A DNA stretch of 64,000 nucleotides from Methyloversatilis discipulorum (lineage in GTDB: Bacteria > Pseudomonadota > Gammaproteobacteria > Burkholderiales > Rhodocyclaceae): contig NZ_AZUP01000001.1 in NCBI RefSeq assembly GCF_000527135.1, positions 1,178,001 to 1,242,000 on the forward strand. The letters run 5' to 3'. Below the pieces are notes generated by a model. The model worked only from the letters and a program-made list of their open reading frames with translations, searched no databases and was not told the origin of the DNA. Shown in pieces: positions 3,936 to 10,278 of this stretch (the stretch's first letter is position 1; each line of letters opens with the position of its first letter). The position numbers and the translations under genes are program-made.

Positions 3936-4103
3936 CCAACTGCCAGCCAGCCGGCGGTCGCGGCCAGCCAGTCATGCAAAGCACGGAGCATTCATGACCT
4001 GCCCGCATAGCCCCCGGCGCCCCTCTTGCGATGTGGCGTCCTGTACGCGAGGCCTGTTTTCAGGCCGCGCACCCCATCGTCCGTTCATCGAGAGAGGTCA
4101 CCC

Positions 4104-4856
4104 ATGATCCACCATCGCCTGCGTCCGTTCGCGACGCCGCTGCTCGCGGCCGCCTGCTTCGCACTCGCCGGTTCCGCCTACGCGAACACCACCCACAGCG
4201 CCTTCGACGACATCGAAGCTTCGGTCGCCACAGACGGTTTCAACAACCTGACCGCCGCCCGCATCACCGCCACGCAACTGGCGGCTGGCATCGCGTCGAA
4301 CAGCGAAACCGAAGGCGGCGCCATCCTCCGGCGTACGTCCGGCGGCGCCTACCCGGCCTCCTCCGGCCTGTACCAGTTCGCCGGCAACGGCTCGACCTTC
4401 GAAATGGCGGTCAGCGACGCGGTCGACGGCCTGACCAGCATCGTGTTCCAGACCTATATCAACGTGAGCACCGGCAGCAACGGCATCTACGGCGTGCTGG
4501 CGGAGAACAACCTGCCGCGCCTCAGCTTCAACGGCGGCGAGCAGTTCCTGCTCTCCAGCTCGCAGGCGAGCGAGAACCTGGGCTACACCGATTTCTTCAC
4601 CGGTGAATTCGTCGCCTCCGACCCGAACAACCCCAACCACCTCACCTTCACCTGGAACCTGGCCAGCCTCGGCGTCACGGTGCCGGTAGACAGCTTCCGC
4701 ATCACCTTCGCCACCGACAACCACGCACAGTCGCTCGCCTTCCAGGTCGACCAACTGGTGGCCGCACCGGTGCCGGAACCGCAGACCGCCGCGCTGCTGC
4801 TCGGTGGCATGGCGGTGATCACGCTGGTCGCCCGCCGGCGCACGCGTCAGCACTGA
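4104..4856 (+). CDS. PEP-CTERM sorting domain protein (exported, surface-associated)
   Basis: The 250-residue product has a Sec signal peptide (about residues 1-27, ending GSAYA) and a Ser/Thr/Asn/Gly-rich body of beta-rich character. Its C-terminal PEP-CTERM signal consists of VPEPQTAAL, a hydrophobic helix and the basic tail RRRTRQH. Such proteins are processed by exosortase EpsH/XrtA-type transpeptidases in EPS-forming bacteria. GAGAGG seven bases before the ATG chooses this start over frames further upstream. The body gives no enzymatic clue. It lies just before a heme-type TonB receptor, which suggests but does not show a role in iron or heme capture. Confidence 0.85.
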   Translation: MIHHRLRPFATPLLAAACFALAGSAYANTTHSAFDDIEASVATDGFNNLTAARITATQLAAGIASNSETEGGAILRRTSGGAYPASSGLYQFAGNGSTFEMAVSDAVDGLTSIVFQTYINVSTGSNGIYGVLAENNLPRLSFNGGEQFLLSSSQASENLGYTDFFTGEFVASDPNNPNHLTFTWNLASLGVTVPVDSFRITFATDNHAQSLAFQVDQLVAAPVPEPQTAALLLGGMAVITLVARRRTRQH

Positions 4857-4934: not shown

Positions 4935-7250
4935 TTGAAACATCGAATTCCCCTGCGTCCGCGGCTGCTGCTGGCGCTGATGTGGCCGCTCGCGTGCGCC
5001 GCGCAGGACGATGCGCTGTCCGAGGAGGACGTCGTCACGCTGCCGGAAGTCGAGGTGCGCGACTCGCGCGAGGCCATCCGTCCGCCCGCGGTCGAACTGA
5101 CTCCCGATCGGCCGGTCACGACGATAGGACCCGAGGCGATCGAGCGCCGCCAGGCCGGCACGATATTCGACCTGCTGAAGGACGTGCCGGGTGTCGCAGT
5201 CGACGGCGGCCCACGCGCCAGCGGCATGAAATTCAATCTGCGCGGCTTCTCCGACAACGAAGACGTGCTGTTCAAGATCGACGGCGCGGTCAAGGGCTTC
5301 GAGAAGTACCGCTTCGGCAGCGGCGTGTTCATCGAACCCGAACTGCTGAAGGCCATCGAGATCGAGCGCGGGCCATCGCTGAAGTCCGGTTCCGGCGCGC
5401 TCGGCGGCACCATCTCGGCCACCACCAAATCCGCCGCCGACTACCTGCGACCGGGAGAACGCTTCGGCAGCCAGATCAAGTACGGCTACAACGCGAACAG
5501 CAGCGAACGGCTGCGCATGGTGACGGTGTACGGTCGGCCGAACGGCTATCTCGATCTGGTCGTGTCGATCGCCCGGCGCGACTCCGACGACATTCGCCTG
5601 CCCGACCGCAGCCGGCTCGACCTGACTGCCGTCCATTCGGAAAGCCGCTTCGCCAAGGCCACCTTCTACGCCAGCGATGACCTGACGCTGGAACTGAGCC
5701 AGACCCACTACACCGGCGGCCCCGAGCGCGCGCCCTATGACGCGACCGCAGGCAGTGCGGGCCAGTTCGGCGTGGTCGAACGCAGCATCGAGGACACCAC
5801 CACCAATCTGCGCGTGAATTACGCGCCAGCCGACTCGTGGATCGCGCTGCGCGGCACCCTCGCCTACGAAACGACCGACCTGGACGACGTACACCGCATT
5901 ACGCAGAGCCGCATCTGCGTATCGCCATCGACCGCCTTTCCGGCGGCTTTCCGCATCGACCGCTGCGACGACGCGTGGCGATACTCGATCTGGACCGCCG
6001 AAGTGTTCAATGACACGCGTTATGCAATCGGCGAACTGCAGGGCGTACTCAGCGTGGGCTACCAAGGCATACGCAACAGCCGCGACATTTCGCGCGTCAC
6101 CTCGCGCGCGCTGACCAACCAGCAGGTCTACCCGAACGGCTTCAACGAGGCGCAACCGCCGGGCGACAAGGTGTCGGATGCACTGATCGTCGAGAACGCC
6201 TTCACGCTCGGCGCCTTCACCTTTACGCCGGGCGCGCGGCTCGACCGCTATCACGTCAGCGCCGAGGGTCAGACGCGCACCAACATGATTGCCGCCGGAC
6301 AGTCGCCGGACATCCGTTTCGTCAAGCTGTCGCCAGCTGCGGCACTCACCTGGCGCATCCCGCGCAGCGACTGGTCGGCCACCGTGCGCTACCACGAAGC
6401 GTTCCGCCCGCCGCTGGTCGATGAGTACTTCGCACGCGGCAGTTTCGCCAGTCGCTGTGCAAAAAGCGCCGGCTGGGCCTTGCCCGGCAACCCGGTGCTC
6501 TACCCTGAACCGCTGTACGACCCCTCTGGCTACGGTCAGACCTACGATCCTGCACTCGACCTCGCCCCCGACAACGAAATCTGCGGCGCGCTGTACCGGC
6601 CACAGGAATCGTCGAACCACGAACTGACGCTGGCCTGGATGCCGCAGCCGGCCTCACCGCGCGACGGCCGCTGGCAGGCGCGGGTCACCTACTACGACAT
6701 CCACACCCGCCATCTGCTCACGTCCTTGAGCAATATCGGCGGCGAAATCGGCCAGCCAGGCAAGGAGCGGCGCAAGGGCACCGAACTCGAAATCAGTTAC
6801 GACGGACTGCACGCCTTCTCGTCACTGTCCTGGTCGCAGATCGACGGCCGCATCACCAACGCGGTCGCCGGTACCGACTACGCGCTCTATGGCGTGCCGG
6901 GCGACACGCTCAGCATCAGTGCCGGCGTGCGCGGTTTCGACGGGCGGGTCGAAGCCGGCGTGCGCATGCGCGACATCGCTGACCGCCGGGCAGCCACCGG
7001 CACCGTTGCCACCGTCTGTTCGCGCCCCGGCACGCTGGTCGTGCCCGGCGTCGGTACCATCGGCACGCAGTACGGCGTACGCCTGTACGACCTGTTCGCC
7101 AGCTGGCAGATGACGCGTGACACACAACTGCGCTTCAATCTCGACAACCTCACTAACGAAACCTACTGTCTGCAGGATGGCTTCGCCGGCGCGGTGGGCA
7201 TACAGGCGCCGGGTCGGACGGCCAAGCTGTCAGTGACGATGAGGTTCTGA
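4935..7250 (+). CDS. TonB-dependent outer-membrane receptor, heme/hemoglobin type
   Basis: The 771-residue protein would import heme or a related ligand across the outer membrane using TonB. It has a short signal peptide (about 1-23), a TonB-box-like segment VVTLPEVEV, a plug domain at about 50-165 (DLLKDVPGV, FNLRGFSDNED, IEIERGP) and a long beta-barrel ending in Phe (KLSVTMRF). The EAFRPPLVDEYFARG segment resembles the FRAP box of heme receptors, followed by a QESSNHEL stretch in place of NPNL. The start is TTG; the signal peptide requires it, although no good ribosome site is visible. The hmuSTUV locus 2 kb downstream supports heme as ligand. Substrate assignment is inference. Confidence 0.82.
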   Translation: MKHRIPLRPRLLLALMWPLACAAQDDALSEEDVVTLPEVEVRDSREAIRPPAVELTPDRPVTTIGPEAIERRQAGTIFDLLKDVPGVAVDGGPRASGMKFNLRGFSDNEDVLFKIDGAVKGFEKYRFGSGVFIEPELLKAIEIERGPSLKSGSGALGGTISATTKSAADYLRPGERFGSQIKYGYNANSSERLRMVTVYGRPNGYLDLVVSIARRDSDDIRLPDRSRLDLTAVHSESRFAKATFYASDDLTLELSQTHYTGGPERAPYDATAGSAGQFGVVERSIEDTTTNLRVNYAPADSWIALRGTLAYETTDLDDVHRITQSRICVSPSTAFPAAFRIDRCDDAWRYSIWTAEVFNDTRYAIGELQGVLSVGYQGIRNSRDISRVTSRALTNQQVYPNGFNEAQPPGDKVSDALIVENAFTLGAFTFTPGARLDRYHVSAEGQTRTNMIAAGQSPDIRFVKLSPAAALTWRIPRSDWSATVRYHEAFRPPLVDEYFARGSFASRCAKSAGWALPGNPVLYPEPLYDPSGYGQTYDPALDLAPDNEICGALYRPQESSNHELTLAWMPQPASPRDGRWQARVTYYDIHTRHLLTSLSNIGGEIGQPGKERRKGTELEISYDGLHAFSSLSWSQIDGRITNAVAGTDYALYGVPGDTLSISAGVRGFDGRVEAGVRMRDIADRRAATGTVATVCSRPGTLVVPGVGTIGTQYGVRLYDLFASWQMTRDTQLRFNLDNLTNETYCLQDGFAGAVGIQAPGRTAKLSVTMRF

Positions 7251-7341
7251 ACAATATTTCATATGTTGAGAACGGTGCGGTACTGCAAGAATGCGCTCCT
7301 GTACTGGATTTCCGCGCCCAATCAATGACATGCAAATGAAA

Positions 7342-7358
7342 CATGCGTTGCACGCATG
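7342..7358. promoter_or_regulatory. Perfect 17-bp palindrome, candidate activator site
   Basis: CATGCGTTGCACGCATG has seven-base perfect arms around TGC. It lies about 100 bases upstream of the sigma-54 promoter element and so at roughly -130 to -145, the usual distance for an enhancer-binding activator. The first half of the 301-base gap 7251-7551 shows no other clear structure. Confidence 0.55.
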
Positions 7359-7459
7359 AACACCGTCATGCACCGTAACTGGACACATCACTGCGTTTGA
7401 ATGCACGCCCTGCGGGAAAAAACCATTCCTAATCATGCTCCAACGCCGTTCACCGCACT

Positions 7460-7475
7460 TGGCTCGGCTCTTGCT
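7460..7475 (+). promoter_or_regulatory. Sigma-54 (RpoN) promoter
   Basis: TGGCTCGGCTCTTGCT matches the consensus TGGCACG-N4-TTGCW at every position but one, including the invariant GG (-24) and GC (-12) with correct spacing. Predicted transcription starts near 7486, about 65 bases before the 39-codon frame at 7552 and about 190 before the DUF779 gene. Sigma-54 control implies an AAA+ activator, whose gene is not in the window. Confidence 0.75.
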
Positions 7476-7551
7476 GGAACGGCCTGTTTTCGCGACGCCC
7501 CGGCGAGGGGCGCCCCGCCCATCCTGTCTTTCCGCACAGGAGTTACGCCCG

Positions 7552-7671
7552 ATGTCTGCCAGCATGGCCGCTCTACAGCTGTCGAAGACTGCGCGCCGGC
7601 ACGCCCCGCCCGGAACGCGGCGCTGCATGCCGACGCGCAGCAGCGGACGGGCCACCACTCCCATTGAATGA
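7552..7671 (+). CDS. 39-residue basic leader-type peptide ahead of DUF779 gene
   Basis: This short frame starts at ATG nine bases after AGGAG, the only good ribosome site in the interval. It ends eight bases before the ATG of the DUF779 gene, which itself lacks a convincing ribosome site. The peptide is rich in Arg, Ala, Thr and Pro with one Cys and shows no domain. Its position under the sigma-54 promoter suggests translational coupling to the next gene. It may have no function as a peptide. Confidence 0.4.
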   Translation: MSASMAALQLSKTARRHAPPGTRRCMPTRSSGRATTPIE

Positions 7672-7678
7672 CCGCACC

Positions 7679-8041
7679 ATGCCACACCCATCCGACCCCT
7701 ACTGCCTCGGCCTCATGCCCGACCCGTCCGAACTTCCCGCGCTGGCGGCCAGCGTCGATGCCGTCATGCTTATCATCCGGCTGTCAGCACGCTACGGGCC
7801 GCTGATGTTCCTGCACGATGCGAGCGGTGACGTGCTGCAGCCGCGCTGCCGCCCGGTTGGCTCGCTGCCGGTCGACGATCATGACGTCAAGCTGGGCGAG
7901 GTGGCGGGCTGCGAGTACTGGATCGCACCGTCGGCACTCGATCAACTCGGCACAGGCGCCCTGCTGCTCGACGTGCTGGAAGATCGCGGTGACGCCACCG
8001 GGCTGGCCAGCCGCTTCGTTCTGCGCAAGGTCGGCAACTGA
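7679..8041 (+). CDS. DUF779 family protein
   Basis: The 120-residue product matches the DUF779 family, small soluble proteins usually encoded beside NAD-dependent acetaldehyde dehydrogenases of the ExaC/AldB type. Shared features are the helix ending RLSARYGPLMF, the VDDHDVKLGEVAGCEYWIAPS segment and the C-terminal RFVLRK strand. Most family members carry a Gly-Cys-Cys-Asp cluster after GPLMF; here that position reads HDASGDVLQPRC, so the adjacent cysteine pair is lost. No aldehyde dehydrogenase is adjacent. The ATG is preferred; a TTG 15 bases upstream is an alternative. A role in aldehyde metabolism is inferred only from family neighbourhoods. Confidence 0.75.
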   Translation: MPHPSDPYCLGLMPDPSELPALAASVDAVMLIIRLSARYGPLMFLHDASGDVLQPRCRPVGSLPVDDHDVKLGEVAGCEYWIAPSALDQLGTGALLLDVLEDRGDATGLASRFVLRKVGN

Positions 8042-8049
8042 TCTGCACC

Positions 8050-8070
8050 GGGGCGGCGCAATGCCGCCCC
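8050..8070 (+). terminator. Hairpin after DUF779 gene
   Basis: Perfect eight-base arms GGGGCGGC and GCCGCCCC enclose GCAAT nine bases after the stop, followed by the pyrimidine run TCTCCTC. It probably isolates the sigma-54 unit from the Fur-regulated heme operon. Confidence 0.6.
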
Positions 8071-8171
8071 TCTCCTCACTGGCGGCCGACTCCAGGCCCC
8101 TCGCGTTCATCTCCCTCCCTCTCGCCTGCAAACGACGCGTTGCTGCGCAGCGCTTTCGTCATGCCTGAGGC

Positions 8172-8203
8172 TTGACACCATACTGCGAATCATTATCATT
8201 TAA
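8172..8203 (+). promoter_or_regulatory. Sigma-70 promoter with strong Fur box, heme operon
   Basis: TTGACA (8172-8177) and TATCAT (8194-8199) are separated by 16 bases. TGCGAATCATTATCATTT (8184-8201) covers the -10 and matches the Fur consensus very well. Ferric-uptake-regulator repression of the downstream HemP-like, PEP-CTERM and hmuSTUV genes is the natural reading. Confidence 0.88.
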
Positions 8204-8239
8204 AGAAATCGACCGTCCGCGGCCAGACCGCAAGCATCC

Positions 8240-8431
8240 ATGTCCGCCTCCGGCAACGAACCGACCGAAGCATTGAAGGTGCGCCTGTCCGCCCTGCTGG
8301 ACGACCTGATCCGGCACGACGGCTTTGGCTCGCTGAGCGTCGAGGTCCGCCTGCTCAAGCGCGGGCAGAAGGAAGTCATCATCGACTGCGGCAAGCAGTA
8401 TCGCTACGTCATCGATTTCGCGCCCGGCTGA
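8240..8431 (+). CDS. Small HemP-like protein
   Basis: The 63-residue product is the first gene behind the strong Fur-box promoter. Its C-terminal half (RLLKRGQKEVIIDCGKQYRY) resembles the G-Q-x-E-V-x-I-x-H-x-G-x-x-Y-R core of HemP/HmuP proteins, which act in hemin-uptake regulation in related bacteria, although the usual C-terminal end is not clear here. It has no signal peptide. The position, directly upstream of hemin-uptake genes, is where hemP is normally found. The match is by eye on a short sequence and could be a different small family. Confidence 0.55.
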   Translation: MSASGNEPTEALKVRLSALLDDLIRHDGFGSLSVEVRLLKRGQKEVIIDCGKQYRYVIDFAPG

Positions 8432-8553: not shown

Positions 8554-9201
8554 ATGTCTTTCCGCCTTCTGCTGTCCGCTGGCGCCCTCTGCGCCCTGTC
8601 CTCCACCGCCGCCTTCGCCACCAGCGCCAGCTGGGATACCCCGCTCGCCGGTCATGACGGCAACGGCAGTTCCGCCGCCACGCCGTGGGCCAGCGGCAGC
8701 GTCTATGCCGAGTGGAACGTGTTCGACAGCTTCACCACCGACGCCACGCCCGACATCGCCGGCAGCGGCAGCGTGAGCCAGCTCAACCCGGGCGCCGGCA
8801 GCTTCCTGACCGGCAGCGGAAATCTTTACAGCGCCGCCGGCGCAGCGTCCTTCCTGGTGGATCTCGACGTCGCGCAGAGCGGTACCTGGAATGTGTGGCT
8901 GCGCATTGCGACCCAGGGCACTGCGGCCGACACCGTCGCCACGCTCAATGGCATCGCCGCGAACAAGGTGGTCAGTTACAGCGCCGCGCTCGGCGGCTTC
9001 GGTGGCAGCGAAGAAGAGGCCTACTGGAGCTGGACGGTCACCGATCCGCTGTCGCTGCAGTTCAGCTTCACCAGCTCGGAAGCCCACCTCAGCCTCGACC
9101 AGCTCGCGGTACTTGCGCAGCCGGTGCCGGAACCGACGACCTGGATGTCGCTGGCTGCCGGTCTGGGCCTGCTCGGCGCCCTGTCGCGTCGTCGCGCCTG
9201 A
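8554..9201 (+). CDS. PEP-CTERM protein inside the heme-uptake operon
   Basis: The 215-residue product has a signal peptide (about 1-22, ending AAFA) and a Gly/Ser/Ala/Thr-rich body of likely beta-sandwich type. The C-terminal PEP-CTERM signal comprises VPEPTTWMSLAAGLGLLG and the tail SRRRA. It would be exported and handled by exosortase. It lies 122 bases after the HemP-like gene and only 15 bases before hmuS on the same strand, with no terminator between, so it is probably co-transcribed and Fur-regulated. That context suggests extracellular heme or iron binding, but the body contains few His, Cys or Tyr candidates and no known heme-binding domain. Confidence 0.85.
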   Translation: MSFRLLLSAGALCALSSTAAFATSASWDTPLAGHDGNGSSAATPWASGSVYAEWNVFDSFTTDATPDIAGSGSVSQLNPGAGSFLTGSGNLYSAAGAASFLVDLDVAQSGTWNVWLRIATQGTAADTVATLNGIAANKVVSYSAALGGFGGSEEEAYWSWTVTDPLSLQFSFTSSEAHLSLDQLAVLAQPVPEPTTWMSLAAGLGLLGALSRRRA

Positions 9202-9216
9202 TACCGGGAGACCGCA

Positions 9217-10278
9217 ATGACTCCGCACACCGATCCCGAGAGCCTCTATCACACCTTCCACGCGCTGAAGGCGGAGCGCCGCCTGCGCAATCGCGATGCC
9301 GCCGCAGCCCTCGGCATCAGCGAGGGCGAGGCGATTGCCAGCGGCGTCGGCCGCGACGCCGTGCGCCTGAGCGCACCCTTCGACACGCTGTTCCGCCGCA
9401 TGCCCGAACTGGGCGAGGTCATGGCGCTGACGCGCAACGAAGCCGCCGTCCATGAAAAGACCGGCTGCTTCGAGCAGATGTCCGGCGACGCCAAGGTCGG
9501 TCTGGCGCTGGGCAGCGCCATCGACCTGCGCATCTTCTACGGTCGCTGGGCATACGGCTATGCAGTGACCGAACAGGGTCCGAAGGGTGAGTCGCGCAGC
9601 CTGCAGTTCTATGACGCGCACGGCGATGCCGTGCACAAGGTGTTCTCGCGCGCCGGCACCGATCTCGCGGCCTGGGACCGGCTGGTCGCCGAGTTTGGCG
9701 CCGCCGACCAGGGCGCCGGCGAAAAGGTCGCACCGCGCAGCGCGCCCGCCGACGACGAGACGCCACTCGACGCCATCGACGCCGTCGCCTTCCGCCGCGA
9801 CTGGCTGGGCATGCAGGACACGCACGACTTCTTCCCGCTGCTGCGCCGGCACAAGGTATCGCGCCGCCAGGCCATGCAGATCGCGCCCGAGGGTCACGCC
9901 AACCGGATCGACAACGGACTGACGCGTTCGCTGCTCGAAGTGGCGGCCGCCGATGGGGTATCGGTCATGTGCTTCGTCGGCAACCCGGGCATGATCCAGA
10001 TCCACACCGGCCCGGTGCACCGGATCGAAGTGATGGGCCCCTGGCTCAATGTGCTCGACCCTGGCTTCAATCTGCACCTGCGGCAGGATCTGGTCGACCA
10101 GACCTGGATCGTGCGCAAGCCGACCGCTGACGGCGTCGTCACCTCGGTCGAGCTGCTCGACGCAGCCGGCGAGACCATCGCGCTGTTCTTCGGCGAGCGC
10201 AAACCGGGCAAGCCGGAGCGCGAGGACTGGCGTGCGCTGGTGGCCCAGCTCGGCACCGCCGACAGCCTGGCGGCATGA
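9217..10278 (+). CDS. hmuS: Hemin-degrading factor / heme chaperone HmuS
   Basis: HmuS/HemS/ChuS-family proteins bind heme in the cytoplasm after import and pass it on or degrade it to free iron. The 353-residue length and the internal duplication match the family: two homologous halves, each with an LRxFxGRWxxG-type segment (for example IDLRIFYGRWAYGYAV), and ESRSLQFYDAHGDAVHKVF in the first half. GGGAG lies nine bases before the ATG. Its stop overlaps the hmuT start (ATGA), so translation is coupled. The operon and length make this assignment firm. Confidence 0.93.
   Translation: MTPHTDPESLYHTFHALKAERRLRNRDAAAALGISEGEAIASGVGRDAVRLSAPFDTLFRRMPELGEVMALTRNEAAVHEKTGCFEQMSGDAKVGLALGSAIDLRIFYGRWAYGYAVTEQGPKGESRSLQFYDAHGDAVHKVFSRAGTDLAAWDRLVAEFGAADQGAGEKVAPRSAPADDETPLDAIDAVAFRRDWLGMQDTHDFFPLLRRHKVSRRQAMQIAPEGHANRIDNGLTRSLLEVAAADGVSVMCFVGNPGMIQIHTGPVHRIEVMGPWLNVLDPGFNLHLRQDLVDQTWIVRKPTADGVVTSVELLDAAGETIALFFGERKPGKPEREDWRALVAQLGTADSLAA

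Follow-up and report, generated by a model that had tools for sequence, protein, structure and literature searches.

The window, a 64,000-nucleotide stretch (1,178,001-1,242,000) of the single-contig, 4.3-Mb Methyloversatilis discipulorum genome, carries at 7679-8041 on the forward strand a gene for a divergent, 120-residue member of the DUF779 family (PF05610, 46 bits against a gathering cut-off of 25). Its neighbours are of heme type. Upstream, on the same strand, is a gene resembling those of TonB-dependent heme receptors (4935-7250), which matches the Pfam receptor and plug domains and scores 267 bits with TIGR01785, below the cut-off of 317. Downstream are a forward-strand sequence that we take to be Fur-box-like (8184-8202), a small ORF that is presumably HemP-like and matched no library family over its cut-off (8240-8431), and a forward-strand gene for a HemS/ChuX heme utilisation protein (9217-10278; PF05171 and PF06228). 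Two proteins encoded among the heme genes, at 4026-4856 and 8554-9201, carry PEP-CTERM sorting signals. We found no aldehyde dehydrogenase (ALDH) gene beside the DUF779 gene among the neighbouring genes scanned, in agreement with a preliminary description of this DNA that had called the gene an orphan and had, also correctly, supposed a methylotrophic host. An Rfam search of 7200-8300 returned no match at E 0.1.

Orthologs of the orphan gene occur in 12 of 13 Methyloversatilis genomes, the window's own counted, at 51-96% identity, and M. thermotolerans (G158) is the sole genus genome without it. A search of 84,980 species genomes, limited to near matches, found four named loci, all in Methyloversatilis; the nearest is in a M. 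discipulorum MAG, whose protein is 96% identical. The orphan-type copy is a paralog and was found in this genus only. The genome's other DUF779 copy has an adjoining ALDH gene, and such a gene lies beside DUF779 in 37 of 38 loci, bearing out the partnership that the preliminary description had stated. No sigma-54 site with at most one mismatch was seen at the ALDH start in any of these 38 loci, most of which stop short of that start, and they do not show the frequent sigma-54 control that the same description ascribed to dehydrogenases beside DUF779. In the divergent neighbour of the canonical ALDH gene (L003:11610-12818), a GAF domain was matched, Trans_reg_C only weakly and below its cut-off, and a sigma-54 activator domain not at all.

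Orphan and canonical DUF779 proteins are 25-34% identical and share positions such as G40, L42, F44, P55, C57, D69, G73, D98, R112, F113 and R116. Unlike the canonical proteins encoded beside ALDH genes, the orphan type has gained the sequence GCEYW and lost the motif SGGCCDG, which is intact in the 10 canonical sequences aligned and missing from the 10 orphan-type ones; it is also set apart by the lack of an adjacent ALDH gene and by a sigma-54-type promoter of its own. The predicted fold of the orphan protein is IscA/SufA-like. A-type Fe-S carriers such as IscA and SufA have three conserved cysteines, including a C-terminal Cys-Gly-Cys. The orphan protein differs from carriers of the IscA/SufA/HesB type in that this C-terminal Cys-Gly-Cys is absent, as it is from all 20 aligned DUF779 sequences, and sequence searches of the PDB gave no match with the protein (E 0.1) or with the family profile (E 1).

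Upstream of the gene, at 7460-7475 on the forward strand, is the sequence TGGCTCGGCTCTTGCT, a -24/-12 element with a single mismatch to the sigma-54 consensus TGGCACG-N4-TTGCW. After all loci were brought into the same orientation, TGGC[TG]C[AG]-N4-TTGCT was found in 12 of 12 orthologs, 83-285 bp before the start, with the -24 GG and the -12 GC invariant throughout. Dinucleotide shuffling of the gene's own 350-bp upstream region gave an equally good site in 2 of 300 shuffles. Treated in the same way, the 350-bp upstream regions of the ten ortholog loci with one mismatch reached an equal mismatch count in 0-4 of 300 shuffles, and those of the two loci with two mismatches in 11 and 22 of 300. 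Across the 4.3-Mb genome, TGGCNCG-N4-TTGCW occurs 13 times versus 5 for a reversed control, and the looser TGGCNCR-N4-TTGC 44 times versus 27. A lone site of such quality is weak evidence, and it is the conservation in all 12 orthologs that establishes the element as real. The genome encodes RpoN (PF04552, 221.7 bits) and has 26 matches to the Sigma54_activat domain (PF00158), 22 of them of at least 204 bits. The preliminary description had recognized both the single mismatch, which is confirmed, and a sigma-54 promoter ahead of the gene, which the orthologs support. We strongly infer that the promoter is sigma-54 dependent, and this putative sigma-54 switch of the orphan gene is conserved across the genus Methyloversatilis. 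Between promoter and gene lies a leader ORF of 39 amino acids (7553-7669), with a Shine-Dalgarno-like AGGAG; its frame is present only in the three M. discipulorum-like promoters, and its product matched no family.

The preliminary description further proposed that a perfect 17-bp palindrome, CATGCGT-TGC-ACGCATG at 7342-7358, is the enhancer bound by the activator. Its two 7-bp arms are present, but the central TGC does not pair. The palindrome is intact here only, has one mismatch in two near relatives and has three to six in the other nine orthologs; a genome-wide search found no second match at one mismatch or fewer, and a simple scan also calls it terminator-like on the minus strand. Whereas the -24/-12 element is thus retained by close relatives, the palindrome is not conserved in the orthologs, which rules it out as the enhancer. 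The conserved element instead overlaps the palindrome and extends downstream of it.

This element consists of two boxes, both assigned to the minus strand. Box A (7346-7363) reads CGTTGCACGCATGAACAC on the plus strand and TGTTCA-N5-GCAACG on the minus strand, and box B (7369-7386) reads TGCACCGTAACTGGACAC on the plus strand. Their ortholog consensus sequences are CGTTnCAnnCmTGrACAs and TGCmCmGhwAyyGGACAm, respectively. The gap from A to B is 5-6 bp in 12 of 12 orthologs, and the boxes end 71-74 bp before the -24 element, or 96 bp in one genome. In 53 pairs drawn between six species groups and compared without gaps, identity is 79% in box A, 89% in box B and 78% in the -24/-12 element, but 26% in the 50 bp after box B and 27% in a 50-bp stretch before box A. 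Read on the minus strand, the boxes are imperfect dyads that both start with TGTYCA (TGTCCG for box B in one genome) and can be described as degenerate TGTYCA-N5-TGRACA dyads. On the strength of this conservation, boxes A and B together are a putative upstream activator site (UAS) of the DUF779 promoter. They fit the TGT...ACA class that PMC6615313 describes for many sigma-54 activators with Fis-type HTH domains; because dyads of this class are common to many such activators, the likeness is not specific to one protein. A possible, weak IHF-like site, consisting of an A-tract and AATCA, lies between the UAS and the promoter (7417-7446, forward strand) when compared with the consensus quoted in an excerpt of PMC8899819; AATCA is found at this place in just 5 of 12 orthologs.

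Stretches of ~20 kb were fetched around 15 strong activator matches (14 regions) and later around the remaining seven. In the first region set, the best matches to the box A and box B matrices outside their own promoter are in one region, L112. This region contains a gene for an AcoR-type activator with Sigma54_activat and Fis-type HTH domains (L112:8149-10116), together with genes for a PedF-type cytochrome c, two PQQ alcohol dehydrogenases (ADHs) and a quinoprotein-relay hydrolase, and a gene that matches aldehyde ferredoxin oxidoreductase (AOR) below cut-off. An activator of the AcoR type, which the preliminary description had envisaged, is therefore encoded beside PQQ alcohol dehydrogenases. 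It is present in 13 of 13 genus genomes at 85-100% identity, that is, in all 12 genomes with the DUF779 gene and in M. thermotolerans, which lacks it. The two dehydrogenases are apparently xoxF3 and mdh2, since the gene order agrees with that of Ald, XoxJ3, XoxG3, XoxF3 and Mdh2 given for METUNv1_590040-590051 of M. universalis FAM5 in an excerpt of PMC5023235. A table in that excerpt lists FAM5 transcripts of xoxF3G3J3, mdh2, mdh2J/G and Ald as 1.4-3.1 fold more abundant with methanol than with methylamine; its last column, whose meaning the excerpt does not give, has values of 0.05-0.77 for these genes (PMC5023235).

Promoters in the ADH cluster carry related sequences. The xoxF3-like promoter combines TGTTCA-N5-GTT[TG]CA with TGGCCCG-N4-TTGC in 13 of 13 genomes, and a TGTYCA-N5 dyad lies upstream of the mdh2-like gene in all 11 genomes whose fetched stretch includes that gene. 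A clear -24/-12 element is lacking, however, from the dyad-bearing mdh2-like and ferredoxin/AOR promoters, and in 13 genomes no conserved UAS-like site was seen at the PedF promoter, which leaves the assumed regulon untidy. The dyad upstream of the ferredoxin/aldehyde oxidoreductase-like operon, TGTCCA-N5-TGGACA at L112:6613-6629 (G000:C1:1276612-1276628), is found in 12 of 12 clusters with that ferredoxin gene, with outer repeats in most genomes; no -24/-12 element is visible near it in these 12 clusters. In 13 of 13 genomes the PedF promoter has a sigma-54-like TGGYAYG-N4-NTGC (L112:7968-7983, minus strand), which lies 42-46 bp ahead of the first PedF codon in the alignment.

A matrix was built from the 11 distinct sites that lie ahead of the two PQQ-ADH genes, with no DUF779 site included. 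Over the window and 22 other regions (984,308 positions), it gives box A rank 10 and box B rank 32; in a smaller set of 711,518 positions the ranks are 10 and 29. Three of the nine positions that score better than box A in this smaller set belong to L112, two as training sites and one as a further site; the other six are in L106 (three), L110, L104 and L003. Those in L110, L104 and L003 are chance-like, and those in L106 are of unclear meaning. Among the 44 genomic TGGCNCR-N4-TTGC sites, only the xoxF3-like promoter, itself part of the training set, has a better upstream score than the DUF779 promoter (14.0), and the next site reaches 11.1. Conversely, matrices made from the DUF779 promoters place L112 first for box A and second for box B among 22 regions, a set in which 21 regions take in every one of the 22 strong activator matches; within the first 15 regions, L112 is first for both. 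The sole region ahead for box B owes its rank to L197:13373, which we rejected as a regulon site because it sits inside a long reading frame; L110:13001 was set aside likewise because it sits at a gene end. At L106:18891-18925, two UAS-like sites of the alcohol type precede a gene that by eye is chemoreceptor-like, with no -24/-12 element visible. Box B is only moderately like the ADH sites, and the matrix ranks are not independent probabilities, since the ADH cluster was chosen as the best of the scanned neighbourhoods. The resemblance of both boxes to PQQ-ADH sites near an AcoR-type activator gives support, short of proof, to the link with alcohols or aldehydes suggested in the preliminary description.

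The main competitor, to which we give a smaller though substantial chance, keeps the sigma-54 promoter and assigns it to another of the 22 enhancer-binding proteins, with an inducer other than alcohol. All 22 have Sigma54_activat matches of at least 204 bits, sites need not adjoin their activator's gene, and the other candidates include proteins that we take to be NorR-like, V4R/DmpR-like, AcoR-like and NtrC. No other activator neighbourhood, however, is near the top for both box A and box B. The NtrC half-site consensus resembles TGCACC, with which box B begins, but box B ends with GGACA in 12 of 12 orthologs and never with the NtrC-like GGTGCA, so NtrC is not favoured. When 19 of the 26 activator matches of this genome were compared with 13 of the 17 in M. 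thermotolerans, several had no close match in that species, which also lacks the DUF779 gene; choosing by presence or absence is nevertheless not decisive, and the AcoR-type activator favoured here is present in M. thermotolerans. A very improbable reading is that the -24/-12 element arose by chance and that transcription of the gene comes from a sigma-70 promoter that escaped notice. Across the genome, the enrichment of such motifs over the reversed control is no more than modest, but a chance match would not account for an element kept in all orthologs with its GG and GC invariant and its spacing from the UAS nearly fixed while the flanks have diverged, and the sole sigma-70-like site in 7230-8260 lies downstream of the gene, at 8172-8199.

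The neighbourhood invites the different view that the gene functions in heme or iron acquisition and that sigma-54 is a second input. The gene does lie between the heme-receptor-like gene and an ORF preceded by a Fur-box-like sequence, with HemS further downstream; in 10 of 12 loci a Fur-box-like sequence can be seen by eye after the ortholog, and the predicted IscA/SufA-like fold hints at iron. By eye there is no Fur-like box at the DUF779 promoter, however, and the protein has lost the family's cysteine motif. HemS is present in 11 of 13 genus genomes, and two genomes (G153 and G154) keep the DUF779 gene, UAS and promoter with no HemS match, the gene upstream being presumably ExbD-like instead, whereas M. 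thermotolerans has HemS and no orphan DUF779 gene. Hence the DUF779 gene is not tied to heme uptake, and we regard a role in heme or iron acquisition as quite unlikely. The preliminary description was right that the neighbours are of heme type, but the setting among them, which it saw as Fur-regulated, seems incidental. A variant, unlikely in our judgement, is that the motif-less Methyloversatilis paralog is an alcohol-induced accessory protein of IscA fold that is truly coupled to the heme locus, where it would tune iron, heme or Fe-S supply to the cytochrome c- and ferredoxin-dependent oxidation of alcohols by PQQ enzymes and of aldehydes by a tungsten enzyme.

On balance we favour, by a little, the explanation that the DUF779 gene is a stand-alone sigma-54 unit of an alcohol-oxidation regulon under the AcoR-type activator of the ADH cluster; the assignment of that protein to this promoter is made with moderate confidence from the sequence comparisons. 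On this explanation, an alcohol or a derived signal would induce the gene. The AcoR-type enhancer-binding protein would bind boxes A and B (7346-7386), a DNA loop over ~75 bp would bring it to the promoter, and RNA polymerase with sigma-54 at 7460-7475 would start a transcript near 7486. The product would be a small protein of predicted IscA/SufA-like fold, from a family that normally accompanies aldehyde dehydrogenase, and probably helps the cell to deal with aldehydes while alcohols are oxidised, in a way that would no longer use the cysteines of SGGCCDG. The DUF779 gene is thus best read as a satellite of the alcohol regulon that lies among heme genes and is independent of them.

Comparable arrangements have been described in other bacteria. 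BmoR of Thauera butanivorans is, like the candidate here, a sigma-54 enhancer-binding protein with a distant inverted-repeat UAS; as described in an excerpt of PMC8899819, its UAS lies 193 bp upstream of the -24/-12 element, compared with 71-96 bp here. The clostridial regulators AdhR, AorR and BldR, whose regulons cover alcohol and aldehyde enzymes, likewise have TGT/ACA inverted repeats, spaced by 10-12 bp, and a sigma-54 promoter downstream; they differ in belonging to another phylum, in controlling other enzymes and in having most sites 100-250 bp upstream (PMC6615313). An excerpt on Azospirillum locates DUF779 with ALDH and PedF genes (PMC12826043). In a literature search of open-licence papers, we found nothing on the regulation of DUF779, a term that appears in just two of them, once each and on other matters, and nothing on sigma-54 control in Methyloversatilis or on the regulator of this ADH cluster; the one paper to mention both Methyloversatilis and sigma-54 describes a Zoogloea genome. 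The arrangement proposed here offers a candidate activator-binding motif for the Methyloversatilis PQQ alcohol dehydrogenase cluster and suggests an IscA-like fold for the DUF779 family. It would also give this uncharacterised family a testable regulatory home, in the oxidation of methanol or ethanol by PQQ enzymes.
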